Shown here piece after piece: positions 15,122-61,574 of a stretch of 64,000 bases of DNA (its first letter is position 1; every line of letters begins with the position of its first letter). The notes under the pieces were generated by a model that saw only the letters and a list, made by a program, of their open reading frames with translations, did no database searches and was not told the origin of the DNA. Origin of the DNA: Apostichopus japonicus (taxonomy: Eukaryota > Echinodermata > Holothuroidea > Aspidochirotida > Stichopodidae); the NCBI RefSeq assembly GCF_037975245.1, contig NC_092563.1, positions 29,537,960 to 29,601,959 of the forward strand, in the 5' to 3' direction. The position numbers were made by a program, and so were the translations under genes.

Positions 15122-15173
<52 letters not shown>

Positions 15174-18100
15174 GTATATATATATATACATATATATATA
15201 TATCAATTTATAAGTTAAGTTACAGAAGACAAAAACCTCTCTTTATAGCCATAAAATGTTGATGTCAATATTTAGTCTCTTGTAGTATAATCTTGATGAT
15301 GCAAACTGTAACTCAGAAATGTTGATGTTGTATAAAGAACACTGCTTAAAGAAAGTGGAAAATATAGATAGAAGTAAATAGAATAGGACTAACAGTAGAC
15401 ATTAAGATGAACAATGCGTAGATGTTGGTGGTTAATGGTACATTAATTTCATGCTGGGGCAAGTAGGAAATTAACCATAGGCATGGAATTAAAACTTCCC
15501 TAAAAGTCATTTTAAATTGTTACTTTCCCTTTTGTTTTTTTGCTCTGGATTGAATTACGTTTAATTTCATTCATATCGCAGGATTTCATTGGGTGGCTGC
15601 TATGACCAATCAGATATACGAGGCCATCGGCGAACGTACATCGGCTCTATGCCAGGGAGGATCATTAACGGACTAAGAACTGCTGGAGTGAACAACCCTG
15701 TCTTTCTTCTAGATGAGATTGATAAATTGGTAAAGCCTCCATTAAAACAACATGATCACTTAATGCCTTCAATCTCTTTGTGCTTGTGTGTTTAATTGAG
15801 TTTAATTGTTGGACTGTTTGCCTCATTTTCAAGCAGCTAGTCCATTATATAAATCATAAATGTGAAGTTGAACATCGGAACCGTCACAGACATTTTTTAT
15901 TTCTTAAAATTTGTGATCATTTAAAACATGAATTTAATATGACTGCAGTTTCAGACTTCATTAATTTTTTCACATCTGTGAAGTTCTTGCCTTCAGTTGA
16001 AAACTACAAAAGCAGATTGTTCCTTTCCAGTCAGAACTAAAACATGGTGAAGTTATTCAGTGGATATTATTGTTTTTATACTAAAGATGAGTTATTGCAT
16101 CTTGTAAACTGTTAGTCTCTTAAAGACAATTTTAACCATACTTTACTTCTCATTACAGTACATTGTCACTACATTATTATTATTAAAATCCAAATTTCTC
16201 TGTATAGGATTGTAAAATTGGTTAATAAATAGTACAAGGCAGAGAGTTGGTATTGCCATATCTGTTAGACAAGAGTTAACTTCATCAGATGGAGATTAAG
16301 TTTATTGGTCTTCATTTCTTTTGCCATCACAGGGTAAAGGACTTCATGGAGATCCTGCTGCCGCCCTGCTGGAAGTCTTGGACCCTGAACAAAATTTTAC
16401 CTTCACTGACCAGTATCCTTTCATCACACAGAATTGTAGCAAGGCACTTATTAATTTGACGTTTTAATGGGAAACAGTCACAAATCTACACATGTTTTTT
16501 CAGTTTTGGGGGAAGGGGTGATTGGTGTCATGACTTTTTACAACATTGTCATCACATTACACTGTTGATGACTTGGTATTATAGAGTTCCCCTTTAATAT
16601 GTTGGCCATGTTGGTTCCAATGGTCTTTGGTGCAAAACTTGGCCTTTGTCCTTTCAGTACAACATAGATACGACCTTGTTTAGTTCCATTTGATGGCCAT
16701 ACAGACTACGTTTCACCGGTGTCATTGTTAAGTAGATGTTGAACCTCTATCTGGCTAAAATGTGGAACAGTTTCAAGAGTTCCCATCTAAAGTGTTTAAT
16801 AAAATAACAAACAACATCCAATAGTTCACTGTATCAACTCCAAAGATGAGGTGCAAGTAAGATGCTATGTGAGCTTTCCTAGAATGTATCTGTGGCTATT
16901 AAACCTGTTTTAAACCTGCTTTAAAACTGTTTAAAAATAAACCAATTTGGCTGAGTGAATGCTATAAAGTTTCCAAGCTTGGTGGAATGTGCTCTTCTTA
17001 GCTGCAGTTGTTCAATTCATCATTCTACCATTTGGAAAGTGATGTTACTAACATGAAAACATCAGGCCCTCAAGATTTTACATATTTGTCATTTACTTGT
17101 TTTATTCTGAAGTTTCCTTAAACAGACCATAGTTACCTAAATGTGCCTTTCGACTTGTCACAAGTCCTCTTTATAGCAACAGCTAACAGTGCTGCCACGA
17201 TTCCTACACCCCTGCTGGACAGGATGGAGATCATTCACGTCCCTGGTTACACTCAAGAGGAGAAAGCAGAGATTGCATTGCGTCATCTGGTCAGCAAACA
17301 ACTCAAGGAACATGGTTTAACGGAAGAACAGCTCCAGTTTACCGAGGACGGGATTAAACTCATCAGTGAGTATCATGTCAAAGATTGAAAAAGAGTATCG
17401 TACTTCAGGATTGGAATTTTAGATCATGTTTGTATTACGTGGCACATGTGGTGTCTGTTATCTGCTGTGTTTATCAATGTGTCATTTTCTGATCCAACTT
17501 TATTGATTTCTTTATTTTGACGGAAGACATGAAAGTCTCAACTGGAGAGATCTAGTTGGAATAGTGATGCTCCCTTTGTTTTGCAATCAATATTACTGAT
17601 CTGGTACTGAATGTCCCATTGATGTTACTTGGACACATGTTACCATTCAATATTACTTCATGTTATTAGCAATTGCAGTATGCCAAAGTCAAAATTACCT
17701 TATATCCAATTAGCAATATTTTCATCTGGCAGTATAAAGAGCTTATATAAATATTTTAATACAAAAGCATATGAAATATACTCTTGCCTACTTGAGGTGA
17801 GACAGATTATCCTTTAGGAATTCAAGTTTGTTTATACATGATGCTTGTTCCTTATCTAACAGCTTATCATGTTTTGTCTTCTTTGTTATGCTTTCTCCTA
17901 AGTTGCAAGGTACACCCGTGAATCTGGAGTTCGTGCTCTGGAGAGAAAGCTTGGATCGGTCTGTCGAGCCGTCGCAGTGAAGGTAGCAGAACACCAGTCT
18001 CGTCAAAAGAGTATAGCCTCACCATCTGTGGAGGAGGAGGAGAAGAAGGAGGTTGCACCACGTCAACGACCAACTGAAGATGCCTTAATTGAAATGCCAC

Positions 18101-18540
18101 CTGAGATGCCTATTGTGATTGATAAACTTGCCATCAGGGATATACTTGGGGTGAGTCATCAGCCAGGGGTTAGCTATTTCCAGTCATTCTAGATTTATAC
18201 TGGAATGAATAAATGGGATGAAAAAGGTAGAAAAGCCCACATTTTAAGCAATTTTCTCCATGCTTGGATATATATACATATATCAGTCTTGTGCTCTTCT
18301 GTATTCTTCCTTCTCTTGTGTAAGTCAGGCAAATCATGTGAAGTATATGTTATCTTCCCACCCCCCCCTTACCTTCCACTCATTCCACCCTTCTGTTCCT
18401 ATGCAGTCACCTATAACTTTTAGAAACTTTAGTATTAACTGTTGAGCATGTCTGATTGTTACAATGCATAACAGGATAAAACTCAATAGAAAGGGGCAAA
18501 AATATCACATATTTATTAAATGAAAGTAACCTATTAAAAC

Positions 18541-18611
<71 letters not shown>

Positions 18612-21600
18612 TATATATATAAATGAAAATCGTAATAAGTTGAAAAATCAAGAACAGTGAAAAACTTCCAGCCTCCATCAAGATTCGAACCCGGACCTCC
18701 AGCTCTGTAAGCGGACACCCTAACCACTAGACTATGGATGCTGATTGTATGTCCAGAGGTTCTAAACCGGTAAGGAAGGTCGTAATTTTACTGTAGGCGT
18801 TTGTCACCTGTATCGAACAATAGTAGTTCTGTTTTTGGTGACATATTTTGCCTTACTCTAGAGTATATATATATAATGTAGATGTTTTGCATTTTTAAAC
18901 TTTTCAGCCTGCCATCTATGAGAGGGAAAAGTCAGAGAGGTTGTCACAGCCGGGAGTAGCAATAGGTGAGTTGAAGATATGATAACTTTATACTCATTGA
19001 AAGAGGAGACTCACTCTCCAGTTATGTATGCATATGTATAAATATAATTATATGCAAATTATGTATAAACTTGAAAGAGCAAAGAAAATTTCATGTTCTT
19101 TCAAATTTAGAAAGAGGAGATGATAGGGTTGGTCCAATTAAATGTGCCAATATTTTGGAAGGTTACCTTGGTTCCCACTAATTAGTATTATTTTTTCAAT
19201 TTTTTGGGTGTTGTTCGTGGTGCTGTTGTGAAGTAGACTATCACATCTAAAGGTTCCACAAGAGATACACTTGATAAGGGTTCTCGAGCCATGTTTTGAA
19301 ACACTAAAACTTTTAGCTACTTATTACAATTGCCATGTATTGAAAGTTTCATTTTGTTGAGTATCCCTTTCTTAATACCAGATAAAATGGGACAGATTTG
19401 GTTCAAAGTGTACAGAGGTGATAGAGAAAAGATATTTATATTCCCTTCAAGTTGAGTTGAACTATATCAATCAAACTTTCAAGTCACATATATAAATATT
19501 TGTCACTGAAAAGTTTCAATATTTTTTTCTTTTTCTGGCCAATTCTTTCTGTATTATAATTCATTTTGTCTTTTCATTTACTCTACGATAGGACTGGCCT
19601 GGACTACTATGGGTGGAGAGATCATGTTTGTTGAAGCTGCCAAGATGGGGGGCGACAGGGAACTCACGTTGACCGGTCAGCTTGGTGACGTCATGAAGGA
19701 ATCTGCCCAACTGGCCCTCACCTGGGTTCGAAGTCATGCCGCCGAGGTCTGCTATGATTGTTAGAGAACACTTAACTTATTAACCTTGACTTTGTAGTTA
19801 CTCCTGCTGATGACTACTAGATATAAACCAGAACACATAGTCACCGACAAGTTGAAGTCAGAAATTAAAAGACAGATATCCACCAACTTATCAGGTTTTA
19901 CTGTAGCAACATGTTGAAAGACTCCATGCCAGATTGTGCATTTAATGTTTTTTAACAGGAGAAAAATTCAAACTTCAATGAATTTGATTTCATTGTATTA
20001 AGTCTTACAAGAGGTCAGTTAAAAGCTGTTTAAGGGATGGGCTTGCAAACACAAAGATCATTGAATTTTGCAGCCAGCATGATAACTCATGTATAATATT
20101 CAAAATTGAATAATTACATTTATCAGACATCAACTGAGAGAGGATATTCTTAAAATGTCTGCCAGATTATACAAATAGTCACTTTAAGTACATGCCATTC
20201 ATCAATGGCAGGTTTTCAACAAAGTTTTGTTAATTTCAGAGAGTATTTTTCAATCTTTGTGACTCTTCCTTAAAGATTTGAAATTTTCGGTCCATACTTT
20301 TCTTTTCTCTTTATTCCTTCATCAGTGCGGTCTAGACCAGAAAACACAGGAAGATCTACTGAGAAAGACTGATGTCCACATCCATTTTCCAGCAGGAGCA
20401 GTGGGGAAGGATGGACCATCAGCTGGGGTAACCATTACCTGTGTACTTGTGTCCCTCTTCAGGTAACTACACACCAGTAGTACCATCACCTTTATAAGCC
20501 AGTTAAACTTAATCTTTGTCAGCTAGAACGCTGAAGAATGAAACTTTTGACATGTTCAAGCTGTTTGGTGAGTTTGAAATACACCTCAAGGCACACATTG
20601 ACAAGGCTTTATCGACTGTCATAAGTATCCGCCCAACGAATGATTATTGTGCAAGTGCTTGAGAAAAAGGCTTATTCGTCTGCTTTTTCTTTTGTGGCTA
20701 ATTTTCTACATTTTTGGCTACCATGTGATAGCTGTGGTTATAGTAAACATATAATTAGCTGTGAAATCCATCAAATAATTTGGCAGCTTTAAGTAGAAGA
20801 CTTTTTACCATTCCTGATTATCCTATATTCCTGTTGTTATAGTTTATATATTGAATATGTGTTATGACAGATGACTGTTGCATGGCATGTATAATTGTAT
20901 GTTGTTATATTTTATGTTTTATATATTGAATATGTGTTATGACAGATGACTGTTGCATGGCATGTATAATTGTATGTTGTTATATTTTATGTTTTATATA
21001 TTTAATATGTGTTATGACAGGTGACTATGTTGCATGGCATGTATAATTGTATGTTGTTATATTTTATGTTTTATATATTTAATATGTGTTATGACAGATG
21101 ACTGTTGCATGGCATGTATAATTGTATGTTGTTATATTTTATGTTTTATATATTTAATATGTGTTATGACAGATGACTGTTGCATGGCATGTATAATTGT
21201 ATGTTGTTATATTTTATGTTTTATATATTTAATATGTGTTATGACAGGTGACTATGTTGCATGGCATGTATAATTGTATGTTGTTATATTTTATGTTTTA
21301 TATATTTAATATGTGTTATGACAGGTGACTATGTTGCATGGCATGTATAATTGTATGTTGTTATATTTTATGTTTTATATATTTAATATGTGTTATGACA
21401 GGTGACTATGTTGCATGGCATGTATAATTTTCTGTTGTTGTTCTCCAGTTGGAATTTGAAGAATTTAATGTACTATATTGAAGTATAAAAGAAGTGAAGG
21501 ATCTCTTGGTTGCCATGCAGGAGTAATATTATAGCCTTCAATGTTGGTGTTATGTTAAGTACTTTGTCCATATTTTGTTATTTTCCCACAGTGATCGTTG

Positions 21601-22293
21601 TGTGCGTTGTGATACAGCTATGACTGGTGAGATCACACTTAGAGGGATGGTGTCAGCCGTAAGTTGTAAATTTCACTTCATGTAGAGTTGAGCAAAAAGG
21701 AGCTGGTTTTACTGCTGTCGATCGTTTCTGACCCAAATCACAAGAAACACTATCAACCCAAAGTTTTTCTACCCAAGAACATCACAGTTGGCTGTTATTT
21801 GTTCATTTATAGCTTTCTCTAAACAAAAACATAATCTGTGAACATTCAGAGCATCTTAAGGTTTAAGCCAAGTTCTTGTCATCTTTCAGTAGGTTAGTCC
21901 AATCAAGCAGTGTGCTGATGGTAAAATGTTTCACATTCACACAGAATTGGTTTAAACATGAAATGAGACATTTGGTCTGAATCAGTGTTTATGTCTTTCT
22001 TTCCTTGTGGATGCTGATGTATGACAAGCAGTTCTATTTTTGTTATCTTTTGAATTCAGGTGGGCGGTATTAAGGAAAAGGTCCTAGCAGCCCATCGTGC
22101 AGGAATCTATCGGATTATTCTACCAAAGAGAAACGAGACAGATTTGGAAGAAGTGCCAAAGAATGTCCTATCACAGATGACCTTCGTCTTTGCCAGAACG
22201 TTGGAGGATGTTCTGGATGCAGCATTTGAAGGAGGGTTTCCTCATCTCAAGAGAACGGTTGTGTCAGAAGATGTCATTCCAAGTAAATTGTAG
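8637..22293 (+). CDS. LONP2: LONP2, peroxisomal Lon protease homolog, 17 exons, 845 aa
   Basis: ATP-dependent AAA+ serine protease of the peroxisomal matrix, where it degrades damaged proteins and helps processing and turnover of imported enzymes. Coding exons: 8637-8737, 9904-9991, 10713-10911, 11890-11990, 12899-12982, 13520-13764, 14289-14462, 14652-14837, 15582-15729, 16333-16412, 17133-17365, 17903-18150, 18908-18965, 19592-19746, 20326-20462, 21592-21658, 22060-22293. Every junction keeps phase, and the sum is 2535 nt plus stop, close to the 852 residues of the human protein. The start ATG at 8637 ([12 protein letters not shown]) aligns with the beginning of the N domain. The protein ends PSKL, a type 1 peroxisomal targeting signal that separates it from mitochondrial LONP1. 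Intron 5 has a GC donor and intron 10 looks U12-type. No break is seen, so the gene appears functional. Confidence 0.96.
14289..18150 (+). CDS. LONP2: LONP2 exons 7-12: AAA+ ATPase module
   Basis: Exon 7 carries [19 protein letters not shown], a Lon hallmark. Walker A is GPPGVGKTS at residues 370-378 (exon 8). Exon 9 has [19 protein letters not shown] and Walker B VFLLDE at 433-438. The sensor-1 Asn is in ATAN at 484-487 (exon 11). The sensor-2 Arg is in TRESGVR at 551-557 (exon 12). All nucleotide-handling residues are present, so ATP-driven unfolding should be intact. After sensor 2, exon 12 holds an acidic insert (runs of Glu and Lys) of the kind that varies between Lon proteins. Confidence 0.94.
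15125..15204. repeat. (TA)n microsatellite in LONP2 intron 8
   Basis: A run of TA dinucleotides with a few interruptions, inside the 744-bp intron between exons 8 and 9. The rest of that intron shows no gene or repeat I recognise. Confidence 0.9.
16413..17132 (+). other. Probable U12-type (minor spliceosome) intron 10 of LONP2
   Basis: The donor GTATCCTTTC (16413-16422) matches the U12 5' splice consensus [AG]TATCCTTT exactly over the core. The branch-like TTCCTTAAA lies at 17114-17122, with the likely branch A at 17121, 11 nt before the end of the intron at 17132. Using the acceptor at ...CCATAG gives DHYLNV across the junction, the conserved Lon sequence. Using the nearer CAG at 17123-17125 would create an immediate stop. 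Confidence 0.8.
18541..18623. repeat. (TA)n microsatellite in LONP2 intron 12
   Basis: A TA/CATA repeat tract next to the tRNA-like sequence at 18660-18745. It may be the simple-sequence tail of that SINE read on the minus strand. Confidence 0.85.
18660..18745 (-). repeat. tRNA-derived SINE or tRNA pseudogene
   Basis: On the minus strand the A box reads TAGTCTAGTGGTTAGGGTG and the B box GGTCCGGGTTCGAATCTTG. The acceptor stem is imperfect and the anticodon arm pairs poorly (loop would read TAC). A TA-rich tail follows at 18541-18623. This fits a SINE head or decayed tRNA better than a working tRNA gene. It sits inside LONP2 intron 12. Confidence 0.6.
18908..22293 (+). CDS. LONP2: LONP2 exons 13-17: Lon serine protease domain and PTS1
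   Basis: Starts with [19 protein letters not shown]. The catalytic Ser is residue 732 in KDGPSAG (exon 15) and the catalytic Lys is residue 773 in [14 protein letters not shown] (exon 17), the Lon Ser-Lys dyad. Exon 16 has [11 protein letters not shown]. The usual Pro of the VLPVGG motif is replaced here, giving VSAVGG, a small deviation near the active site. The C-terminus is SKL followed by TAG at 22291-22293. Confidence 0.95.
20845..21425. repeat. 75-78 bp tandem repeat in LONP2 intron 15
   Basis: About seven units that each contain TTGCATGGCATGTATAATTG and TTTAATATGTGTTATGACAG. Units alternate between a 75-bp form (GATGACTGTTGC) and a 78-bp form (GGTGACTATGTTGC), a higher-order variation that points to unequal exchange. 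The 79-codon frame running through it is a by-product of a period divisible by three. Confidence 0.92.
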
Positions 22294-27203: not shown

Positions 27204-27398
27204 TCCCCCTGGTTCTTTGGTCTTATCTGTTGTCATGTCATTGCGCAATGAATGTTGTTTGTCACCCCAGCCACCCTAGATAGGGGATTAAAGTACACTG
27301 ACAAAGACAAACATACAAGCGTGCTGTCAACTGTGTTTACTATGAAGTTTCAGTTGCCCGTATAACGCTAACTGCGACACACATCGCTGGTTAGAGTG
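27204..27398 (+). promoter_or_regulatory. Duplicate of the LONP2 upstream block
   Basis: Matches 8195-8395 nearly base for base with a few small deletions. The C/EBP-type palindrome ATTGCGCAAT is kept at 27240-27249. Homology stops after GGTTAGAGTGC and resumes near 35567, just before exon 1', so about 8.2 kb of foreign sequence now separates this block from the exons. Confidence 0.7.
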
Positions 27399-27529
27399 CA
27401 GACTGCTGTTTTTGCTCAGCGACGCGAATAAGTAGGAAATGCTACTATATTTCCTCCTCTTTCTACAAGAGTCCACATCGCAAGCCGTTTTAGTTTTTAT
27501 TCTGTATTTGACGATATCACAATCATTTG

Positions 27530-34673: not shown

Positions 34674-35631
34674 ATAGGGTATTAAACATAATTTACAATA
34701 AATAAACAGGTCCATTACAGTCATAAGTTATAGCTATTTAAAAAAAAAAAGTATTAAATTTGGTCAAAATCGAATTTAAAAACATTCCACTATCAATGGC
34801 GTTAGTGAACTACCCTGAGGTGGAGCTGGCTGAAATTAATACATAGGATACTTAACATAAATAACCAGGTCTATTAGACTCATCAGTTATCGATATGTCA
34901 TTCTAAACTTCGATCGAAAGTCGATACTATAAAAGTTCCGCACTCAATCGCGTTACTGAGCTGCTATCATAAGGTGGAGCCGAGTTTTAACCTCGAAAAA
35001 TCATCATAATTGTCCATAAACGTGACTGATATAAATACAAAGTGTTTTCAAGAAACTTTGGAATGAATACCTAGTCCTTTTTATAGAGTTTTTACCTTTT
35101 TGTAGAAAGAAACACCAATTAAAATTTGCAGTAAATCACAGTCCACATGAAGCTTCCGTATCACTTTTATCCGCTAGGTGGAGCTTATTTTGGTGGGCAC
35201 AACCCCTGATGCAATTGATTTACATGTTATTATCTACCCTGAGGTGGAGAAGTTCACAGCTGCAACACCTGATGGCAGTTTTCGTCACAAACCTCTTCAC
35301 TCAGTAGTAAACAGTTTTCGTACGCTGTTGCTGTAGAGCCTTGCAGGGTTATAAAATTGCTTTAACTGGCCAAATTTGTGCACTACATGTACTTTCCATT
35401 CATGCTCTTCAATATGCAAGCCACTAAAACCAGATCCTGATTGATAACATATCAAAAAAGATGTTCTCCTGCTACTTTTTGGCACTTTTTCTGAGATAGG
35501 AGAACACTCGGGCGGAGTGATATAGACTCTAATATGATTAGGAGTGTGCATATGCCACGTTACAATCCATCAGAGTTCTCTGATGTGAAAGCATCACCTA
35601 CTTACGGTAGGCTTAAAGGTAACTTAGAATC

Positions 35632-35696
35632 CTGATTGCAGACCACAAGCTTTTACCGGGTTCTCCAATACGAGTTCCCGGTAAGAACCCAAAAAA
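35632..35696 (+). pseudogene. LONP2 duplicate, exon 1' (start codon lost)
   Basis: Matches the end of LONP2 exon 1: ADHKLLPGSPIRVPGKNPK against [19 protein letters not shown]. The length from the GAC codon to the donor gtaagt is identical (56 nt), so phase 2 is kept. The segment that held ATGAAAATGGCG in the parent is missing and an in-frame TAA lies at 35620-35622. This exon cannot begin translation itself. Upstream homology to LONP2 is recognisable from about 35567. Confidence 0.8.
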
Positions 35697-38948: not shown

Positions 38949-39036
38949 TATGGTCATGGTGAAGACCCATATCTTGAGGCATAACACACTAAGCAGCACA
39001 CCAATTGGTGTAATCCCTAGAAGGGCCGGGTCTGAG
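38949..39036 (+). CDS. LONP2 duplicate, exon 2' (intact)
   Basis: An 88-nt exon, the same length as LONP2 exon 2, with acceptor cttgtag and donor gtacgt. It encodes [18 protein letters not shown] then [11 protein letters not shown]. Phase is retained. The ATG at its second base is in frame, so it could serve as a start codon now that the exon 1' ATG is gone. Confidence 0.75.
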
Positions 39037-39733: not shown

Positions 39734-39962
39734 AAAGATGACTTGAGTGAAATTCATTACATCGGTCCTGCATCTGTTGTATTCCAGGTAACGGGCACCA
39801 ATTGGCCAAGACCTGCATACACTCTGCTACTCTCTTTGATAATTGTTTTGTTACAACTAGTCACTGGTCTCTTTCGCTTAAAAGGCGATTACTTTCGAAA
39901 AGATGACCCTTACCCATGGGCCCGATTTTCTGAAATGGACAAGGTTCCAGGAGATCGAGAAG
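39734..39962 (+). CDS. LONP2 duplicate, exon 3a (open, +10 codons)
   Basis: Matches LONP2 exon 3 ([36 protein letters not shown]). It carries an extra 30 nt encoding hydrophobic residues (LSLIIVLLQL) in the middle of the PUA-like fold. The insertion is a multiple of three, and the splice sites (atttag, gtaacc) and phase 1 exit are preserved. The inserted hydrophobic stretch would probably disturb the fold. Confidence 0.72.
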
Positions 39963-40124
39963 GTAACCACCACAAAATGTCTGATTGCTTATTTATGTTT
40001 TATTTTATTGTAGAAATGAAGACTGTACTGTTACAATGAAACATTTGAAGGCTTTGTTCTGTTTTTACCTCCATGGTTTGACACTACACATGTGCTGAAT
40101 TCAGTTCCCTTCACTCAAGCTCAA

Positions 40125-40840: not shown

Positions 40841-40920
40841 GTGGTATTTCAACTTTGGTTGGTGCTGCAACTTTCTGTCTCCATGTGATCAAATTGAATC
40901 TAGTATTGCTTTTGTTCAAG
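40841..40920 (+). CDS. LONP2 duplicate, exon 4a (open, -7 codons)
   Basis: Counterpart of LONP2 exon 4, with AATFCLHV against AETFRLHA and retained acceptor ccacag and donor gtatgg. It is 21 nt shorter (80 instead of 101) but still open and phase-correct, ending LLLFK. It is the most diverged of the duplicated exons. Confidence 0.62.
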
Positions 40921-41470: not shown

Positions 41471-41900
41471 AAGATTAGGTACCTCAAGCTGTTACTTTAG
41501 TCCACCCAAATCACAGCACAATGAACACAGAACTTTGCAGTTGAGACAGAGTTTGCAGACTTGTGATAGAAAGATTTAAAAGCATTAACTTTGAACACTT
41601 TTGTCTGTTGAATTCCCTTCCCCGCTGTCACTTCTTTATTTAAAATGGTTCATTATGTGATGGCAGATTTCGAGTCATTATTCATAATCTTTTCATGAGC
41701 AGTAAAAAAGCAAGTATTTTCATAGACTAAGAGCAGACAGTGCCTGACTGTAAATCAAAGAAATAAAAGCCATATGCTGGGAGATGTTTGATTCCTGACA
41801 GCAGGCAAATGAAATCTGTTCGTGATGACATGTACAGGTAAATTCGTGAATGCACACACGTTGATGTGCAAACATGTATGTGTGTAAGTGAGGACTTTGT

Positions 41901-43617
41901 TCTATGTCAAAGTTCAGGAGACAACAAATTTGGTTGAAAAATTGTATTTAGCATATAATCCATGCAAATGCATGTAATGCTTCTACGTTGTGCCAGCAAC
42001 TACTGCAGTCTATTGCTATTAGGTATATGCGACCAAACAGCCAAAACTTTAGGAGAGTGTATTGAAAGTTGGAACTAACCCTATTTGAGTAATACTCATG
42101 TAACTTTGGTCCATTCGTTACTCTAATAATCCTTAAATCTCTTATCTGTTTGTTTAATATTTAGAATTACGCATGTTTTTACATCCATGGCATCGGTACT
42201 GCAGTTGTTGTATTCCAGGTAACAGGCAACAAATGGCCAAGACCTGCATACACTCTACTAGTTACTGGTATCTACCGCTTGAAAGAACATTATAACTCTT
42301 GGTTTGAAAATCACCCTTTACTAAGGGCTGGATTTACTAAACTGGACAATATTACAGGAGATGGAGAAGGTACGTAACCTGATTAATTATTTATGTTTGA
42401 TGTTATCGTAGAAGTGAAGACTGTACTGTTACAATGAAACATTTGAAGGCTTTGTCTGACACTTCACATGTGTTGAATTCAGTCCCCTCGCTCAAGCTTA
42501 AATGAGAATGATAAGGTCCCTCCTCAGGTTGATGTGTATGATTCAGAAACACTGTTTATAAATTACAAACATGTGCATCTTGGGTAGTTATACTGTAGAA
42601 TACACTGTTGCTTCTGCACAAGAAACTTGTTCTCTCAAAAACATGTATTCCTCCTCATCTAGTACTTGAATGTTTAGTCCACGGGTGGGGTCTAAGATAG
42701 TTGGTTTGCCCTTGGGGATGGTGGTGCCAAATTTGAAAGTTTCACATTGTCAAGTGAGATGGGTTTTTTTTCAATGTTTTGATCACAAGGCTTTAGCTTT
42801 ATGCTATTTTGAAATATCTTCATCTGCTCATTTGAAACCAATTATCTTTATTTGCTTCTCCTTAACCCACAGAGGATATGTCCAGTATGATGGTAACTGA
42901 GACTTTACGTCTTGATGCCAAGCAGTTGTTGGAAATGTTAAATTCTGTGACAACCGTTGGCAAATTAATGGTATGATGTGGTTAATTGATGCTATGAATA
43001 TTCATAATGTCATCCTCTCAGAACAGCAGTTGTTCAATTAGAAGAACGTTTTGACATTTCCGTGAAGGGAAAGGTTGAAGAAAATTACGCATTCTTCTAT
43101 AACTGATAAATGCCTCAAACGTGATTCCCTTCCCAAATAACACTTCTTTATATAAAATGGCTCATTACATTTACATTTATGAGTAAGATAAGGTACCTCA
43201 AGCTGTTACTTTAGTCCACCCAAATCACAGCACAATGAACACAGAACTTTGCAGTTGAGACAAAGTTTGCAGGCTTGTGAAAAAAATCAAAGTTTATAGC
43301 ATTAACTTTGAACACTTTTGTTTCTTGAATTCCCTTCCCCACTGTCACTTCTTTATTTAAAATGGCTCATTATGTGATGGCAGATTTCGAGTCATTATTC
43401 ATAATCTTTTCATGAGCAGTAGAAAAGCAAGTATTTTCATAGACTAAGAACAGACAGTACCTGACTGTAAATCAAAGAAATAAAAGCCATATGCTGGGAG
43501 ATGTTTGATTCCTGACAGCAGGCAAATGAAATCTGTTCGTGATGACATGTACAGGTAAATTCGTGAATGCACACACGTTGATGTGTAAACATGTATGTGT
43601 GTAAGTGAGGACTTTGT
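41901..43617 (+). CDS. Lon N-domain exon cassette, unit 1
   Basis: The first of six tandem units. Exon 3b is 42165-42369 (205 nt, two codons longer than LONP2 exon 3) and reads [29 protein letters not shown] and TKLDNITGDGE. Exon 4b is 42873-42970 (98 nt) and reads EDMSSMMVTETLRLDAKQLL then EMLNSVTTVGKLM. Splice sites are intact (ttag/gtacgt and ccacag/gtatga). Exon 3b enters in phase 0 and exon 4b leaves in phase 0, so each unit adds exactly 101 codons. The unit runs from mid-intron 2 to mid-intron 4 of LONP2. Expression is not shown. Confidence 0.7.
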
Positions 43618-45334
43618 TCTATGTCAAAGTTCAGGAGACAACAAATTTGGTTGACAAATTGTATTTAGCATATAATCCATGCAAATGCATGTAATGCTTC
43701 TACGTTGTGCCAGCAACTACTGCAGTCTATTGCTATTAGGTATATGCGACCAAACAGCCAAAACTTTAGGAGAGTGTATTGAAAGTTGGAACTAACCCTA
43801 TTTGAGTAATACTCATGTAACTTTGGTCCATTCGTTACTCTAATAATCCTTAAATCTCTTATCTGTTTGTTTAATATTTAGAATTACGCATGTTTTTACA
43901 TCCATGGCATCGGTACTGCAGTTGTTGTATTCCAGGTAACAGGCAACAAATGGCCAAGACCTGCATACACTCTACTAGTTACTGGTATCTACCGCTTGAA
44001 AGAACATTATAACTCTTGGTTTGAAAATCACCCTTTACTAAGGGCTGGATTTACTAAACTGGACAATATTACAGGAGATGGAGAAGGTACGTAACCTGAT
44101 TAATTATTTATGTTTGATGTTATCGTAGAAGTGAAGACTGTACTGTTACAATGAAACATTTGAAGGCTTTGTCTGACACTTCACATGTGTTGAATTCAGT
44201 CCCCTCGCTCAAGCTTAAATGAGAATGATAAGGTCCCTCCTCAGGTTGATGTGTATGATTCAGAAACACTGTTTATAAATTACAAACATGTGCATCTTGG
44301 GTAGTTATACTGTAGAATACACTGTTGCTTCTGCACAAGAAACTTGTTCTCTCAAAAACATGTATTCCTCCTCGTCTAGTACTTGAATGTTTAGTCCACG
44401 GGTGGGGTCTAAGATAGTTGGTTTGCCCTTGGGGATGGTGGTGCCAAATTTGAAAGTTTCACATTGTCAAGTGAGATGGGTTTTTTTTCAATGTTTTGAT
44501 CACAAGGCTTTAGCTTTATGCTATTTTGAAATATCTTCATCTGCTCATTTGAAACCAATTATCTTTATTTGCTTCTCCTTAACCCACAGAGGATATGTCC
44601 AGTATGATGGTAACTGAGACTTTACGTCTTGATGCCAAGCAGTTGTTGGAAATGTTAAATTCTGTGACAACCGTTGGCAAATTAATGGTATGATGTGGTT
44701 AATTGATGCTATGAATATTCATAATGTCATCCTCTCAGAACAGCAGTTGTTCAATTAGAAGAACGTTTTGACATTTCCGTGAAGGGAAAGGTTGAAGAAA
44801 ATTACGCATTCTTCTATAACTGATAAATGCCTCAAACGTGATTCCCTTCCCAAATAACACTTCTTTATATAAAATGGCTCATTACATTTACATTTATGAG
44901 TAAGATAAGGTACCTCAAGCTGTTACTTTAGTCCACCCAAATCACAGCACAATGAACACAGAACTTTGCAGTTGAGACAAAGTTTGCAGGCTTGTGAAAA
45001 AAATCAAAGTTTATAGCATTAACTTTGAACACTTTTGTTTCTTGAATTCCCTTCCCCACTGTCACTTCTTTATTTAAAATGGCTCATTATGTGATGGCAG
45101 ATTTCGAGTCATTATTCATAATCTTTTCATGAGCAGTAGAAAAGCAAGTATTTGCATAGACTAAGAACAGACAGTACCTGACTGTAAATCAAAGAAATAA
45201 AAGCCATATGCTGGGAGATGTTTGATTCCTGACAGCAGGCAAATGAAATCTGTTCGTGATGACATGTACAGGTAAATTCGTGAATGCACACACGTTGATG
45301 TGTAAACATGTATGTGTGTAAGTGAGGACTTTGT
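43618..45334 (+). CDS. Lon N-domain exon cassette, unit 2
   Basis: 1717 bp, nearly identical to unit 1. Exons are 43882-44086 and 44590-44687, both open with intact splice signals. By eye it differs from unit 1 at only a handful of bases, all seen outside the exons (for example CTCCTCG for CTCCTCA before exon 4b). Confidence 0.7.
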
Positions 45335-47050
45335 TCTATGTCAAAGTTCAGGAGACAACAAATTTGGTTGAAAAATTGTATTTAGCATATAATCCATGCA
45401 AATGCATGTAATGCTTCTACGTTGTGCCAGCAACTACTGCAGTCTATTGCTATTAGGTATATGCGACCAAACAGCCAAAACTTTAGGAGAGTGTATTGAA
45501 AGTTGGAACTAACCCTATTTGAGTAATACTCATGTAACTTTGGTCCATTCGTTACTCTAATAATCCTTAAATCTCTTATCTGTTTGTTTAATATTTAGAA
45601 TTACGCATGTTTTTACATCCATGGCATCGGTACTGCAGTTGTTGTATTCCAGGTAACAGGCAACAAATGGCCAAGACCTGCATACACTCTACTAGTTACT
45701 GGTATCTACCGCTTGAAAGAACATTATAACTCTTGGTTTGAAAATCACCCTTTACTAAGGGCTGGATTTACTAAACTGGACAATATTACAGGAGATGGAG
45801 AAGGTACGTAACCTGATTAATTATTTATGTTTGATGTTATCGTAGAAGTGAAGACTGTACTGTTACAATGAAACATTTGAAGGCTTTGTCTGACACTTCA
45901 CATGTGTTGAATTCAGTCCCCTCGCTCAAGCTTAAATGAGAATGATAAGGTCCCTCCTCAGGTTGATGTGTATGATTCAGAAACACTGTTTATAAATTAC
46001 AAACATGTGCATCTTGGGTAGTTATACTGTAGAATACACTGTTGCTTCTGCACAAGAAACTTGTTCTCTCAAAAACATGTATTCCTCCTCGTCTAGTACT
46101 TGAATGTTTAGTCCACGGGTGGGGTCTAAGATAGTTGGTTTGCCCTTGGGGATGGTGGTGCCAAATTTGAAAGTTTCACATTGTCAAGTGAGATGGGTTT
46201 TTTTTCAATGTTTTGATCACAAGGCTTTAGCTTTATGCTATTTTGAAATATCTTCATCTGCTCATTTGAAACCAATTATCTTATTTGCTTCTCCTTAACC
46301 CACAGAGGATATGTCCAGTATGATGGTAACTGAGACTTTACGTCTTGATGCCAAGCAGTTGTTGGAAATGTTAAATTCTGTGACAACCGTTGGCAAATTA
46401 ATGGTATGATGTGGTTAATTGATGCTATGAATATTCATAATGTCATCCTCTCAGAACAGCAGTTGTTCAATTAGAAGAACGTTTTGACATTTCCGTGAAG
46501 GGAAAGGTTGAAGAAAATTACGCATTCTTCTATAACTGATAAATGCCTCAAACGTGATTCCCTTCCCAAATAACACTTCTTTATATAAAATGGCTCATTA
46601 CATTTACATTTATGAGTAAGATAAGGTACCTCAAGCTGTTACTTTAGTCCACCCAAATCACAGCACAATGAACACAGAACTTTGCAGTTGAGACAAAGTT
46701 TGCAGGCTTGTGAAAAAAATCAAAGTTTATAGCATTAACTTTGAACACTTTTGTTTCTTGAATTACCTTCCCCACTGTCACTTCTTTATTTAAAATGGCT
46801 CATTATGTGATGGCAGATTTCGAGTCATTATTCATAATCTTTTCATGAGCAGTAGAAAAGCAAGTATTTTCATAGACTAAGAACAGACAGTACCTGACTG
46901 TAAATCAAAGAAATAAAAGCCATATGCTGGGAGATGTTTGATTCCTGACAGCAGGCAAATGAAATCTGTTCGTGATGACATGTACAGGTAAATTCGTGAA
47001 TGCACACACGTTGATGTGTAAACATGTATGTGTGTAAGTGAGGACTTTGT
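45335..47050 (+). CDS. Lon N-domain exon cassette, unit 3
   Basis: 1716 bp. Exons are 45599-45803 and 46306-46403. A single T is deleted in the polypyrimidine stretch before exon 4b (ATCTTATTTG), which accounts for the 1-bp shorter unit. The exon frames are unaffected. Confidence 0.7.
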
Positions 47051-48767
47051 TCTATGTCAAAGTTCAGGAGACAACAAATTTGGTTGAAAAATTGTATTTA
47101 GCATATAATCCATGCAAATGCATGTAATGCTTCTACGTTGTGCCAGCAACTACTGCAGTCTATTGCTATTAGGTATATGCGACCAAACAGCCAAAACTTT
47201 AGGAGAGTGTATTGAAAGTTGGAACTAACCCTATTTGAGTAATACTCATGTAACTTTGGTCCATTCGTTACTCTAATAATCCTTAAATCTCTTATCTGTT
47301 TGTTTAATATTTAGAATTACGCATGTTTTTACATCCATGGCATCGGTACTGCAGTTGTTGTATTCCAGGTAACAGGCAACAAATGGCCAAGACCTGCATA
47401 CACTCTACTAGTTACTGGTATCTACCGCTTGAAAGAACATTATAACTCTTGGTTTGAAAATCACCCTTTACTAAGGGCTGGATTTACTAAACTGGACAAT
47501 ATTACAGGAGATGGAGAAGGTACGTAACCTGATTAATTATTTATGTTTGATGTTATCGTAGAAGTGAAGACTGTACTGTTACAATGAAACATTTGAAGGC
47601 TTTGTCTGACACTTCACATGTGTTGAATTCAGTCCCCTCGCTCAAGCTTAAATGAGAATGATAAGGTCCCTCCTCAGGTTGATGTGTATGATTCAGAAAC
47701 ACTGTTTATAAATTACAAACATGTGCATCTTGGGTAGTTATACTGTAGAATACACTGTTGCTTCTGCACAAGAAACTTGTTCTCTCAAAAACATGTATTC
47801 CTCCTCGTCTAGTACTTGAATGTTTAGTCCACGGGTGGGGTCTAAGATAGTTGGTTTGCCCTTGGGGATGGTGGTGCCAAATTTGAAAGTTTCACATTGT
47901 CAAGTGAGATGGGGTTTTTTTCAATGTTTTGATCACAAGGCTTTAGCTTTATGCTATTTTGAAATATCTTCATCTGCTCATTTGAAACCAATTATCTTTA
48001 TTTGCTTCTCCTTAACCCACAGAGGATATGTCCAGTATGATGGTAACTGAGACTTTACGTCTTGATGCCAAGCAGTTGTTGGAAATGTTAAATTCTGTGA
48101 CAACCGTTGGCAAATTAATGGTATGATGTGGTTAATTGATGCTATGAATATTCATAATGTCATCCTCTCAGAACAGCAGTTGTTCAATTAGAAGAACGTT
48201 TTGACATTTCCGTGAAGGGAAAGGTTGAAGAAAATTACGCATTCTTCTATAACTGATAAATGCCTCAAACGTGATTCCCTTCCCAAATAACACTTCTTTA
48301 TATAAAATGGCTCATTACATTTACATTTATGAGTAAGATAAGGTACCTCAAGCTGTTACTTTAGTCCACCCAAATCACAGCACAATGAACACAGAACTTT
48401 GCAGTTGAGACAAAGTTTGCAGGCTTGTGAAAAAAATCAAAGTTTATAGCATTAACTTTGAACACTTTTGTTTCTTGAATTCCCTTCCCCACTGTCACTT
48501 CTTTATTTAAAATGGCTCATTATGTGATGGCAGATTTCGAGTCATTATTCATAATCTTTTCATGAGCAGTAGAAAAGCAAGTATTTTCATAGACTAAGAA
48601 CAGACAGTACCTGACTGTAAATCAAAGAAATAAAAGCCATATGCTGGGAGATGTTTGATTCCTGACAGCAGGCAAATGAAATCTGTTCGTGATGACATGT
48701 ACAGGTAAATTCGTGAATGCACACACGTTGATGTGTAAACATGTATGTGTGTAAGTGAGGACTTTGT
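47051..48767 (+). CDS. Lon N-domain exon cassette, unit 4
   Basis: 1717 bp. Exons are 47315-47519 and 48023-48120, open, with the same splice sites. An intronic variant GATGGGGTTTT marks it apart from its neighbours. Confidence 0.7.
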
Positions 48768-50749
48768 TCTATGTCAAAGTTCAGGAGACAACAAATTTGG
48801 TTGAAAAATTGTATTTAGCATATAATCCATGCAAATGCATGTAATGCTTCTACGTTGTGCCAGCAACTACTGCAGTCTATTGCTATTAGGTATATGCGAC
48901 CAAACAGCCAAAACTTTAGGAGAGTGTATTGAAAGTTGGAACCAACCCTATTTGAGTAATACTCATGTAACTTTGGTCCATTCGTTACTCTAATAATCCT
49001 TAAATCTCTTATCTGTTTGTTTAATATTTAGAATTACGCATGTTTTTACATCCATGGCATCGGTACTGCAGTTGTTGTATTCCAGGTAACAGGCAACAAA
49101 TGGCCAAGACCTGCATACACTCTACTAGTTACTGGTATCTACCGCTTGAAAGAACATTATAACTCTTGGTTTGAAAATCACCCTTTACTAAGGGCTGGAT
49201 TTACTAAACTGGACAATATTACAGGAGATGGAGAAGGTACGTAACCTGATTAATTATTTATGTTTGATGTTATCGTAGAAGTGAAGACTGTACTGTTACA
49301 ATGAAACATTTGAAGGCTTTGTCTGACACTTCACATGTGTTGAATTCAGTCCCCTCGCTCAAGCTTAAATGAGAATGATAAGGTCCCTCCTCAGGTTGAT
49401 GTGTATGATTCAGAAACACTGTTTATAAATTACACACATTTACACAATTTACACAATTACACACAAGGCGGAGTGTATAGCGTAGTGGTTAACGCCGGCG
49501 TCTCCCAGTCATGAGATCCCCGGTGCGATTCCCCGCCGACAGCAATGTGTGTCGTCTGGCAAGGGTGTTGTTCAATAACAACTTCTTGACATGGACGTTA
49601 AATGAATGTGTGCCGAGAGATTGGCTTCGGTCAGCTTGCGAGTCTATAAGCCTCCATGGCTTCTTTCGCGAGTTCCTGCTTGCGGGAAGATCACATATAC
49701 ACATGTGCATCTTGGGTAGTTATACTGTAGAATACACTGTTGCTTCTGCACAAGAAACTTGTTCTCTCAAAAACATGTATTCCTCCTCGTCTAGTACTTG
49801 AATGTTTAGTCCACGGGTGGGGTCTAAGATAGTTGGTTTGCCCTTGGGGATGGTGGTGCCAAATTTGAAAGTTTCACATTGTCAAGTGAGTTGGGTTTTT
49901 TTTCAATGTTTTGATCACAAGGCTTTAGCTTTATGCTATTTTGAAATATCTTCATCTGCTCATTTGAAACCAATTATCTTTATTTGCTTCTCCTTAACCC
50001 ACAGAGGATATGTCCAGTATGATGGTAACTGAGACTTTACGTCTTGATGCCAAGCAGTTGTTGGAAATGTTAAATTCTGTGACAACCGTTGGCAAATTAA
50101 TGGTATGATGTGGTTAATTGATGCTATGAATATTCATAATGTCATCCTCTCAGAACAGCAGTTGTTCAATTAGAAGAACGTTTTGACATTTCCGTGAAGG
50201 GAAAGGTTGAAGAAAATTACGCATTCTTCTATAACTGATAAATGCCTCAAACGTGATTCCCTTCCCAAATAACACTTCTTTATATAAAATGGCTCATTAC
50301 ATTTACATTTATGAGTAAGATAAGGTACCTCAAGCTGTTACTTTAGTCCACCCAAATCACAGCACAATGAACACAGAACTTTGCAGTTGAGACAAAGTTT
50401 GCAGGCTTGTGAAAAAAATCAAAGTTTATAGCATTAACTTTGAACGCTTTTGTTTCTTGAATTCCCTTCCCCACTGTCACTTCTTTATTTAAAATGGCTC
50501 ATTATGTGATGGCAGATTTCGAGTCATTATTCATAATCTTTTCATGAGCAGTAGAAAAGCAAGTATTTTCATAGACTAAGAACAGACAGTACCTGACTGT
50601 AAATCAAAGAAATAAAAGCCATATGCTGGGAGATGTTTGATTCCTGACAGCAGGCAAATGAAATCTGTTCGTGATGACATGTACAGGTAAATTCGTGAAT
50701 GCACACACGTTGATGTGTAAACATGTATGTGTGTAAGTGAGGACTTTGT
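48768..50749 (+). CDS. Lon N-domain exon cassette, unit 5 (carries a SINE)
   Basis: 1982 bp because a SINE is inserted in the intron between the two exons. Exons are 49032-49236 and 50005-50102, open and identical in frame to the other units. Confidence 0.7.
49467..49693 (+). repeat. tRNA-derived SINE inserted in unit 5 only
   Basis: The head has A box TAGCGTAGTGGTTAACGCC and B box CCGGTGCGATTCCCC. The body has GCTTCGGTCAGCTTGCG and ends GAGTTCCTGCTTGCGGGA. The other five units read ATTACAAACATGTGCATC here without an insert. An AC-rich simple tract (ACACAATTTACACAATT) precedes it. It is the same family as 386-612. Confidence 0.85.
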
Positions 50750-52364
50750 TCTATGTCAAAGTTCAGGAGACAACAAATTTGGTTGAAAAATTGTATTTAG
50801 CATATAATCCATGCAAATGCATGTAATGCTTCTACGTTGTGCGAGCAACTACTGCAGTCTATTGCTATTAGGTATATGCGACCAAACAGCCAAAACTTTA
50901 GGAGAGTGTATTGAAAGTTGGAACTAACCCTATTTGAGTAATACTCATGTAACTTTGGTCCATTCGTTACTCTAATAATCCTTAAATCTCTTATCTGTTT
51001 GTTTAATATTTAGAATTACGCATGTTTTTACATCCATGGCATCGGTACTGCAGTTGTTGTATTCCAGGTAACAAGCAACAAATGGCCAAGACCTGCATAC
51101 ACTCTACTAGTTACTGGTATCTACCGCTTGAAAGAACATTATAACTCTTGGTTTGAAAATCACCCTTTACTAAGGGCTGGATTTACTAAACTGGACAATA
51201 TTACAGGAGATGGAGAAGGTACGTAACCTGATTAATTATTTATGTTTGATGTTATCGTAGAAGTGAAGACTGTACTGTTACAATGAAACATTTGAAGGCT
51301 TTGTCTGACACTTCACATGTGTTGAATTCAGTCCCCTCGCTCAAGCTTAAATGAGAATGATAAGGTCCCTCCTCAGGTTGATGTGTATGATTCAGAAACA
51401 CTGTTTATAAATTACAAACATGTGCATCTTGGGTAGTTATACTGTAGAATACACTGTTGCTTCTGCACAAGAAACTTGTTCTCTCAAAAACATGTATTCC
51501 TCCTCGTCTAGTACTTGAATGTTTAGTCCACGGGTGGGGTCTAAGATAGTTGGTTTGCCCTTGGGGATGGTGGTGCCAAATTTGAAAGTTTCACATTGTC
51601 AAGTGAGATGGGTTTTTTTTCAATGTTTTGATCACAAGGCTTTAGCTTTATGCTATTTTGAAATATCTTCATCTGCTCATTTGAAACCAATTATCTTTAT
51701 TTGCTTCTCCTTAACCCACAGAGGATATGTCCAGTATGAACATTGTAGAAACTTTACGTCTTGATGCCAAGCAGTTGTTGGAAATGTTAAATTCTGTGAC
51801 AACCGTTGGCAAATTAATGGTATGATGTGGTTTATTGATGTTATGAATATTCATAATGTCATCCTTTCAGAACAGCAGCTGTTCAATTAGAAGAACGTTT
51901 TGACATTTCCGTGAAGGGAAAGGTTGAAGAAAATTACGCATTCTTCTATAACTGATAAATGCCTCAAACGTAATTCCCTTCCCGAATAACACTTCTTTAT
52001 ATGAAATGGCTTATTATATTTACATTTATGAGTAAGATAAGGTACCTCAAGCTGTTACTTTAGTCCATCCAAATCACAGCACAATGAATACAGAACTTTG
52101 CAGTTGAGACAAAGTTTGCAGACTTTTGAAAAATCAAATGTAATAGCATTAACTTTGAACACTTTTGTCTGTTGAATTCCCTCCCCCATTGTCACATATT
52201 TATTGAAAATGGCTCATTATGTGATGACAGATTTCAGTTCATTTTTCATCATGTTATTCTCTGAGCAAATAAAACATGTTTGTTACGACATGTACAGGTA
52301 TATTTGTGAATGGACACATGTTGATGTGTAAACATGTATGTATGTGTGTATGTTGGGACTTTGT
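50750..52364 (+). CDS. Lon N-domain exon cassette, unit 6 (last)
   Basis: Exons are 51014-51218 and 51722-51819, open. Exon 3b has one substitution, QVTSNKW for QVTGNKW. Exon 4b reads EDMSSMNIVETLRL, closer to parental [11 protein letters not shown] than the other units, so it may be nearest the founder at this end. After it, LONP2 intron 4 continues past the amplification breakpoint at about 52364. Confidence 0.7.
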
Positions 52365-52379
52365 ACGCACATGCCAACT

Positions 52380-54050
52380 TGTACAGGTATGACAATAGCT
52401 GGACCATGTGGAAAAACTATATTATATTATATGAAACCCATCTTAGGTGGGCACAATCAACAGGTATGACAATAGGTTGACTATGTGGAACTCTATAGTA
52501 TATTTTATGGTACAGGGAAATGAAACCCATCTTAGGTGGGCACAAACAACGAGTATATGACAATAGTTGGACAATGTGAAATCTATAGTATATTATATGG
52601 TATATGAAAATGAAACCCAATTTAGGTGAGCACAATAAACAGGTATGACAATAGTTGGACTATGTGGATCTCTATAGTATATTATATGGTATAGGAAATG
52701 AAACCCACCTTAGGTGAGCACAATTAACAGGTATGGCAATAGTTGGACTATGTGGAACTCTATAGTATATTATATGGTATAGGAAATGAAACCCACCTTA
52801 GGTGAGCACAATTAACAGGTATGGCAATAGTTGGACTATGTGGAACTCTATAGTATATTATATGGTATAGGAAATGAAACCCACCTTAGGTGAGCACAAT
52901 TAACAGGTATGGCAAAAGTTGGACTATGTGGAACTCTATAGTATGATATATGGTATAGGAAATGAAACCCATATAAGGTGGGCACATCAACAGGTATGAC
53001 AATAGTTGGACCATGTGGAACTCTATAGTATATCATATGGTATAGGAAAATGAAACCCATCTAAGGTGGGCACAATCAACAGGTACGACAATTGTTGGAC
53101 TATGTGGAAATTTATAGTATATCAAATGGTATCAGGAAATGAAACCCACCTTAGGTGAGCACAAACAACAGGTATGACAAAAGTTGGAGTATGTGGAAAA
53201 ACTATAGTATATTATATTATATGGTATAGGAAATTAAACCCAACTTAGGTGGGCACAATCAACAGGTTTGACAATAGGTCGACTATATGGAACTCTTTAG
53301 TATATTATATGGTATAGGTAAATGAACCAACCTTAGGTGAGTACACACAAAAGGTATGAAAATAGTTGAACTATGTGGAACTTTATAGTATATAATTTGG
53401 TATAGGAAATGAACCCACCTTAGATGGTTACAATTAACAGGTATCGTTGGAATATGTGGAAAAACTATAGTATATTTTATGGTATAGGAAATCAAATCCA
53501 CCTTAGGTGGGCACAATCAACAGGTATGACAATAGGTCGACTATGTGGAACTCTATAGTATATTATATGGTAAAGGAAAATGAAACCCATTTAAGGTGGG
53601 CACAAGCAACAGGTATGACGATAGATGAACTATGTGGAACTCCATAGTATATTATATGGTATAGGAAATCAAATCCACCTTAGTTGGGCACAATCAACAG
53701 GTATGACAATAGGTCGACTATGTGGAACTCTATAGTATATAAAATGGTATAGGAAAATGAAACCCAACTTAGGTGAGTACACACAAAATGTATGGCAATA
53801 GTTGGACTATGTGGAACTCCATAGTATATTATATGGTATAGGAAAATGAAAGCCATCTAAGGTGGGCACATTAATAGGTATGACAATAGTTGGCCTTTGT
53901 GGAACTCAATAGTATATTATAAGATAAAGGGAAATGAAACCCACCAAAGGTGGGCACAATCAACAGGTATGACAATAGTTGGACTATGTGGAACTGTATA
54001 GTATATAATATGGTATAGGAAATGAAACCCACCTTAGGTGGGCATTAAAA
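52380..54050. repeat. About 88-bp minisatellite expanded in the duplicated intron 4
   Basis: About 18 units with AGGTATGACAATAGTTGG, ACTATGTGGAACTCTATAG and GAAACCCACCTTAGGTGGG. The parental intron 4 has the same repeat in only three to four copies (12466-12740). Units are diverged from each other, unlike the exon cassettes. Confidence 0.9.
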
Positions 54051-54218: not shown

Positions 54219-54290
54219 AATGTATTGGAGAAGTTAACCCTCACAAGATTGCCAGATATGTTTGCATCCATCCTCAATGAAAACTTACAG
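54219..54290 (+). CDS. LONP2 duplicate, exon 5' (open, -4 codons)
   Basis: Encodes NVLEKLTLTRLPDMFASILN followed by ENLQ, against parental [18 protein letters not shown]. It is 72 nt instead of 84, so a multiple of three was lost and phase 0 is kept at both ends. The donor is gcaagc, again a GC donor as in the parent. A second, broken copy of the exon start follows at about 54325-54356 with in-frame stops. Confidence 0.72.
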
Positions 54291-54324: not shown

Positions 54325-54440
54325 TAAGTAATGGAGTAGTTACCTGTCACAATAATTTGTGTTATTTTTGTCTTGATCATCCCAGCCACGTATATTGTAC
54401 ACTTTCTGGAAAGATTTTAATACAACAACAATGTTTGAAC
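54325..54440 (+). pseudogene. Broken exon 5 copy joined to the end of LONP2
   Basis: TAAGTAATGGAGTAGTTACC after ttgtag matches the beginning of LONP2 exon 5 but has stops. Further on, CCACGTATATTGTA and TTTTAATACAACAACA resemble the last codons and the first 3' UTR bases of LONP2 (CCAAGTAAATTGTAG, TTTAATACAACAACAG at about 22278-22320). I infer an internal deletion that removed exons 6-16 and joined exon 5 to the gene's tail. Confidence 0.5.
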
Positions 54441-54479
54441 TTTTATTCCTGGTAGTACTGCTTTTTCCACAACTATTAC

Positions 54480-57190: not shown

Positions 57191-57199
57191 CGTGATGAA

Positions 57200-61560: not shown

Positions 61561-61574
61561 GTGTGACGCCTTGC

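Follow-up and report, generated by a model that had tools for sequence, protein, structure and literature searches.

A 64,000-nucleotide stretch of the sea cucumber Apostichopus japonicus genome (the window; C3:29537960-29601959 in a searched genome of 671,581,487 bases on 35 contigs) contains an intact LONP2 gene and, downstream of it, a partial duplicate of this gene in which one pair of exons is repeated six times. The locus is best read, with moderate confidence, as a decaying partial LONP2 duplicate with a young sixfold exon-pair amplification, which was probably spliced and translated at one time and would now lack a working Lon N-domain product. The array spans 10.4 kb and consists of six tandem two-exon cassettes derived from LONP2 exons 3 and 4, here called 3b and 4b. 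All 12 cassette exons are open in the Lon frame and have intact splice sites, as proposed in a first-pass annotation of this DNA. The unit length of 1.717 kb given there holds for units 1, 2, and 4 but not for units 3, 5, and 6, as follows:

41903..43619, forward strand: unit 1, 1717 nt, exon 3b at 42165-42369 and exon 4b at 42873-42970
43620..45336, forward strand: unit 2, 1717 nt, exon 3b at 43882-44086 and exon 4b at 44590-44687
45337..47052, forward strand: unit 3, 1716 nt, exon 3b at 45599-45803 and exon 4b at 46306-46403
47053..48769, forward strand: unit 4, 1717 nt, exon 3b at 47315-47519 and exon 4b at 48023-48120
48770..50751, forward strand: unit 5, 1982 nt, exon 3b at 49032-49236 and exon 4b at 50005-50102, with an insert in its intron 3
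about 49440..49700: the insert of unit 5, resembling a short interspersed nuclear element (SINE)
50752..52267, forward strand: unit 6, 1516 nt recognizable, exon 3b at 51014-51218 and exon 4b at 51722-51819

Exon 3b measures 205 nt in all six units (borders TTTAG/AAT and GAAG/GTACGT, the slash marking the exon edge) and exon 4b measures 98 nt, again in six of six (CACAG/AGG and AATG/GTATGA), with the splice sites at the same places as in parental LONP2. Each pair contributes 303 nt, or 101 codons, and is entered and left in phase 0. The first-pass annotation had described this correctly, and the parent is alike, as its exon 3 already starts and its exon 4 already ends in phase 0. Because both sides are in phase 0, added units stay in frame automatically, whatever their number. 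Predicted splicing of exons 2', 3a, and 4a of the duplicate to the six 3b-4b pairs and exon 5' gives a frame of 762 codons with zero stops, which reproduces the length originally suggested.

The parental gene has a C terminus reading ...VIPSKL, which we take to be of the peroxisomal targeting type. Its exons 1 to 6 cover positions 1-199 of the 200 in PF02190, the Lon N (LON substrate-binding) domain family, with 105.8 bits against a cut-off of 28.7 bits. The features needed here are the following:

8637..22293, forward strand: parental LONP2, intact, about 15 exons traced by exon peptides, ATG at 8637, stop codon ending at 22293
10713..10911, forward strand: parental exon 3, 199 nt, entered in phase 0
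11890..11990, forward strand: parental exon 4, 101 nt, left in phase 0

Comparison of the window with itself aligns 41471-47722 with 43185-49439 at 99.5% identity over 6,256 bases, and a chance repeat is ruled out by the 96.6 to 99.6% identity between units over kilobases. Units 1 to 5 differ pairwise by 2 to 6 substitutions per approximately 1717 nt, with none in the 303 exonic nucleotides, showing that the amplification is young. Unit 5 is longer because of its SINE-like insert, a member of a young, dispersed family with 1,406 first-look candidates in the genome, 40 of which (the unit 5 insert included) were scored and are 96 to 100% identical. Unit 6 departs from unit 2 at 3 of 970 positions before exon 4b, at 8 of 98 within it, and at 33 of 446 beyond it. 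It is a hybrid that, from within exon 4b onward, belongs to an older, diverged right edge of separate lineage. The eight differing bases that separate the exon 4b of units 1 to 5 from that of unit 6 fall within 11 nt (42891-42901 in unit 1, 44608-44618 in unit 2), and this cluster may reflect a pair of compensating 1-nt insertions and deletions (indels) or a small replacement.

In the parent, the footprint of the unit runs from intron 2 (from about 10438) to intron 4 (to about 12440), and the unit junctions are thus intronic. Divergence between parent and unit 1 is patchy, at 2 to 19 differences per window of 60 positions, and the units carry one intron 4 stretch that shares 95% identity with parental intron 3. 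Both features suggest exchange between copies. The first 27 nt of exon 3b are divergent (13 of 27 changed). Outside the array, they are matched most closely at 40060-40076, within intron 3 of the duplicate (16 of 17 bases, E = 0.014), which hints at a templated origin without proving it. A 126-nt stretch common to parental introns 3 and 4 (11097-11222 and 12066-12189, 87% identity) may have served as a recombination substrate around exon 4.

Near-identical units are difficult to assemble, and the copy number of six could be an assembly error. This is considered very improbable, since unit 5 is marked by its insert, unit 6 is a hybrid, and the array is shorter than the mean HiFi read of 14.7 kb. 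Reads of that mean length, at 64x, underlie the probable source assembly, according to the accessible text of its description (PMC10344927).

No cassette copies were found elsewhere in the 671.6-Mb genome by protein search; its 15 candidates, all of them scored, gave 14 matches, every one inside the window. A genome search with the DNA of one unit is a weak negative, as it listed only four places in the parental region, missed the other units, and had one of its two candidates scored.

The locus hosting the array is a tandem, unprocessed partial duplicate of the adjoining LONP2 gene. It takes in the parental sequence from about 8193 through exon 5, and over this span the order of the copy is colinear with that of the parent. 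The duplicated stretch starts approximately 450 bp upstream of exon 1, as seen from the recurrence of 8193-8389 at 27213-27399, its single other match in the genome (two of two candidates scored). This upstream stretch and exon 1' now lie about 8 kb apart. When the window was searched with every parental exon peptide except those of exons 3 and 4, two broken exons that the first-pass annotation had missed were retrieved, 1' (with a stop and no start) and 5'' (with a TAA); the count and coordinates it gave are otherwise right. The parts of the duplicate outside the array are as follows:

27213..27399, forward strand: copy of 8193-8389 (upstream of LONP2 exon 1), 88.5% identical
about 35612..35696 (start approximate), forward strand: exon 1', decayed copy of exon 1, donor GT kept
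38949..39036, forward strand: exon 2', 88 nt, open, first codon an in-frame ATG
39734..39962, forward strand: exon 3a, 229 nt, open, with a 30-nt in-frame insertion
40841..40920, forward strand: exon 4a, 80 nt, open, with a net in-frame deletion of 21 nt, poorly conserved
52431..54044, forward strand: about 18 repeats of an 88-bp minisatellite unit, within intron 4 of the copy
54219..54290, forward strand: exon 5', 72 nt, open, with a 12-nt in-frame deletion and a GC donor like that of the parent
54325..54370 (similarity ends at about 54370), forward strand: exon 5'', a second but broken version of exon 5 that opens with a TAA codon

Exons 1' and 5'' are thus broken, whereas exons 2', 3a, 4a, 3b, 4b, and 5' are open. 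Exon 1' has a TAA at 35620-35622 and no ATG in the Lon frame, and it has lost a net 16 nt near its start; exon 5'' follows exon 5' after a gap of only 34 nt. The GC donor apparently used by LONP2 intron 5 (CAG/gcaagt, 12982/12983) is retained as GC in the copy (CAG/gcaagc, 54290/54291). The parent carries about 3 copies of the 88-bp minisatellite (12472-12741) and the duplicate about 18, and a 63-bp minisatellite of about 43 copies (54466-57201) represents further tandem growth at the duplicate locus. The ATPase and protease exons 6 to 15 each have one strong place in the window and no second copy there beyond weak matches (the best, with an E value of 0.012, lies on the other strand of a minisatellite), which agrees with the earlier statement that the array has neither activity.

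The cassettes had also been taken for Lon N-domain, substrate-recognition modules, a reading that is not supported. A single 3b-4b cassette matches PF02190 only at positions 62-139 with 17.8 bits, under the cut-off, compared with positions 57-124 and 44.6 bits for parental exons 3 and 4. The one-unit version 2'-3b-4b-5' reaches 21.7 bits over positions 60-172, and 2'-3a-4a gives no match at an E value of 0.1. A typed chain that includes three of the cassettes (of six) obtains 54.4 bits over three stretches, and so exceeds the cut-off only by the summing of partial matches. A single cassette therefore has neither the cut-off score nor coverage of the whole domain of about 200 positions, and since both were tested, the array is not classed as a Lon N-domain protein. 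The LON substrate-binding domain occurs also in LONP1, CRBN, and LONRF proteins. A genome-wide PF02190 search gave six places, consisting of parental exon 3 and exons on contigs C14 and C20 that look like parts of other Lon-type genes; array cassettes are not among the places given.

Along a weak alignment to the structure 3LJC (E = 0.019), the cassette corresponds to about residues 69-164 of Escherichia coli Lon. The accessible text of PMC6722904 places the N domain of that protein at residues 1-116 and its helices from residue 124 on. By this weak alignment, the cassette comprises the last 48 or so of the 116 N-domain residues and the first helices of the next domain. It would amount to about the final two fifths of the beta N domain with the helices that follow, which is no stand-alone module in those structures. 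Relative to the PF02190 domain, the cassette exons descend from the middle (LONP2 exons 3 and 4), and neither the N-terminal strands nor the C-terminal part is present in the cassette. For the suggested role as an adaptor or competitor of LONP2 substrates, the sequence offered no evidence.

No clear amino acid constraint was detected on the copies. In codon models, the pairwise ratio of nonsynonymous to synonymous rates (omega) is 1.01 between parent and b copy, 0.58 between parent and a copy (twice the log-likelihood difference, 2.6), and 1.01 between the a and b copies. On a three-branch star tree, freeing both copy branches gains only 0.73 log-likelihood units over omega fixed at 1. Divergence from the parent in exon 3b (45/199, 22.6%) is like that of its 120-nt flanks (42/199, 21.1%; P = 0.81), and the same is seen for exon 3a (36/199, 18.1%, versus 42/212, 19.8%; P = 0.71). 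Exon 4b (17/98, 17.3%, versus 21/237, 8.9%; P = 0.036) and exon 4a (30/80, 37.5%, versus 22/114, 19.3%; P = 0.008) are more diverged than their flanks. Parent and cassette differ at 42 of 99 aligned residues, compared with 35 to 47 in 20 random-mutation simulations with an equal number of substitutions. With omega near 1 and exon divergence not below that of the flanks in this small sample, the copies appear to drift at the amino acid level. Positive selection is not claimed, because synonymous sites are raised too, although exons exceed flanks in two of the four comparisons, and the omega of 1.29 on the b branch is unsupported over 1.

Several observations weigh against simple decay. Exon 3a taken alone has an omega of 0.36 against the parent (twice the log-likelihood difference, 6.3), a value that includes the parent's own constraint. 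When PF02190 scores were obtained for 20 mutated parents, 2 were above the cassette (27.4 and 20.0 bits), 3 were below (15.5, 12.1, and 11.8 bits), and 15 had no match. The real cassette thus ranks 3 of 21, which is not significant and is a weak hint of some constraint. The mutated controls are free of indels, and weak scores are concealed by HMMER filtering.

Neutral decay was simulated with assumed copy-branch substitution levels of 0.08 to 0.22, with exons treated as independent, and with indel rates from introns that were halved, multiplied by 0.63, or quartered in the six-exon runs and set to 0.006 or 0.0118 per site in the eight-exon runs. The resulting P values are too small by an unquantified factor, since the finding was picked for its open frames. 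With this limit, all six reported exons stay open with a P value of 0.0002 (4 of 20,000 runs) when substitutions are set at 0.10 and the indel rate is halved, with a P value of 0.0014 when that rate is quartered, and in 0 of 20,000 runs in each of two settings at the observed substitution levels. At least six of the eight copied exons stay open with P values of 0.05, 0.005, 0.001, and 0.00025 over four settings. All 14 splice dinucleotides with a parental counterpart are intact (P = 0.002 to 0.1).

Net length changes in the six open exons (+6, −3, +30, −21, and −12) are multiples of 3 in five of five cases, compared with only 8 of 30 indels in introns. Exon 1', at net −16, departs from this pattern, and the +6 seen in exon 3b may be composed of +2 and +4. 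Frames and splice sites thus seem to be retained beyond the expectation for a simple relic. Because they outlast the neutral expectation, splicing of the copy is probable for some part of its existence, and translation may have occurred as well.

The same retention is what a living gene would show, in which translation starts in exon 2', all cassettes are spliced, and the protein, at some 760 or more residues, varies in length with the number of units, as in LPA. Its product would be a fast-evolving chain of half Lon N domains outside the Lon fold. Joined to exon 1' by splicing, the ATG of exon 2' would have an A at −3 and a G at +4, a favorable context for a start codon. The open exons, the 14 intact dinucleotides, and the in-frame length changes fit this account. 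So does the finding that the exons are at least about as diverged as the introns despite a constrained parent, which could be acceleration. Against it stand exon 1', with a stop and no start codon, the upstream stretch 8 kb away, and the broken exon 5''. Moreover, omega is not above 1 with any support on either copy branch, and synonymous changes are raised like nonsynonymous ones, which points to mutation or conversion and not to selection. A living gene is therefore held to be possible, if doubtful. It is judged unlikely that the locus is a new gene of near-identical 101-residue half-Lon-N modules, with a unit number that varies between individuals, a selected frame, and an abandoned fold, in the manner of apolipoprotein(a) at birth.

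Splice sites kept while amino acids drift, together with the loss of the start codon, would also suit a noncoding RNA. The copy would then be transcribed and spliced, or would alter transcription in its neighborhood, and its frames would be left over from the parent and from the shortness of the exons. However, splicing without translation would not alone hold length changes to multiples of 3, and this explanation is regarded as quite improbable.

For the favored reading, a decaying duplicate that was once probably spliced and translated, the following history is proposed. The sequence shows that a stretch of LONP2, beginning approximately 450 bp before exon 1 and taking in exons 1 to 5, was tandemly duplicated downstream of the gene. 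It also shows that the copy was then broken up, with the opening of the gap of about 8 kb, the loss of the start codon in exon 1, the doubling of exon 5 with breakage of one copy, and the expansion of minisatellites. Within it, the segment from intron 2 to intron 4, carrying exons 3 and 4 in phase 0-0, was probably duplicated and later amplified to six near-identical units. Unequal crossing-over between introns is the most likely mechanism, in view of the near-identity of the units, the hybrid last unit, and the location of the junctions in introns. For part of this history the copy was probably spliced and translated under weak or no amino acid constraint, as the retained frame and splice sites suggest. 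At present, the locus is most likely in decay and yields no working Lon N-domain product, and its copy number may vary.

The closest analogue is the KIV-2 array of human LPA, which encodes apolipoprotein(a), as presented in the accessible text of PMC4378929. That array has a 5.5-kb unit with exons of 160 and 182 bp in 1 to more than 40 copies, and both arrays are built of two-exon, head-to-tail cassettes that keep the frame in each unit and vary little between units. LPA, too, has its origin in a protease gene, having been derived from plasminogen through duplication, deletion, and conversion, according to the same text (PMC4378929). In contrast, a KIV-2 unit encodes one whole kringle, and its gene is expressed and retains a protease-like domain (PMC4378929), whereas the sea cucumber array has a unit of about 1.7 kb encoding about half a domain, has lost the start exon, lacks protease exons, and is not known to be transcribed. 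The array thus shares with KIV-2 a tandem, phase-symmetric, near-identical two-exon unit but, judged by sequence coverage, not one complete folding domain per unit.

EXOV of Arabidopsis is likewise a partial 5' duplicate of its parent gene with fast amino acid change, as described in the accessible text of PMC8824575. Expression, mutant phenotypes, and signals of positive selection are described for EXOV and set it apart from the LONP2 copy as read here, and no cassette array is mentioned for it in that text (PMC8824575). Compared with unprocessed pseudogenes, the LONP2 copy is similar in its kept introns, its adjoining parent, its lesioned exons 1' and 5'', and the absence of detected amino acid constraint; it differs in that six of eight copied exons are open and the splice sites are intact. 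No description of this locus was found among open-licence papers on LONP2 exon duplication, Lon N-domain architecture, and sea cucumber Lon.

Within 46 kb, the parent is found next to older edge copies and a recent sixfold amplification, so that the steps of partial duplication, internal duplication between phase-0 introns, and unequal exchange are directly legible. The study of exon-pair arrays, LPA KIV-2 among them, usually begins long after their onset, and the question of whether the product or the repeat comes first can be asked here. If the array is translated, part of a protease recognition domain would have given a new repeat protein; if it is untranslated, it would illustrate the extent to which gene annotation can be misled by open frames and phase symmetry.

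Other features of the window and genome include an 866-codon open frame at 54377-56977 on the forward strand, left by the 63-bp minisatellite, with a 443-codon frame on the other strand. The frame of this minisatellite matches the Pfam family Bflower_3 (E = 3e-22), which is probably an effect of the repetition. Upstream of LONP2, on the other strand, there is an open frame at 4126-4449 (reverse strand) that presumably represents a NIPSNAP3-type exon. Transposon-like fragments are located at 35925-36618 and 61190-61566 on the forward strand and are assumed here, from their resemblance, to derive from reverse transcriptases of long interspersed nuclear element (LINE)-type and Gypsy-type elements. 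Contig C35 carries a mitochondrial COX1 that stays open under genetic codes 5 and 9, the two that were tried, and code 9, used by echinoderms and flatworms, yields the conserved start TNHKDIG. Besides the mitochondrial copy on C35, five of six COX1 matches lie in pieces on contig C29:14745-31219, which may be mitochondrial fragments or a rearranged mitochondrial contig.

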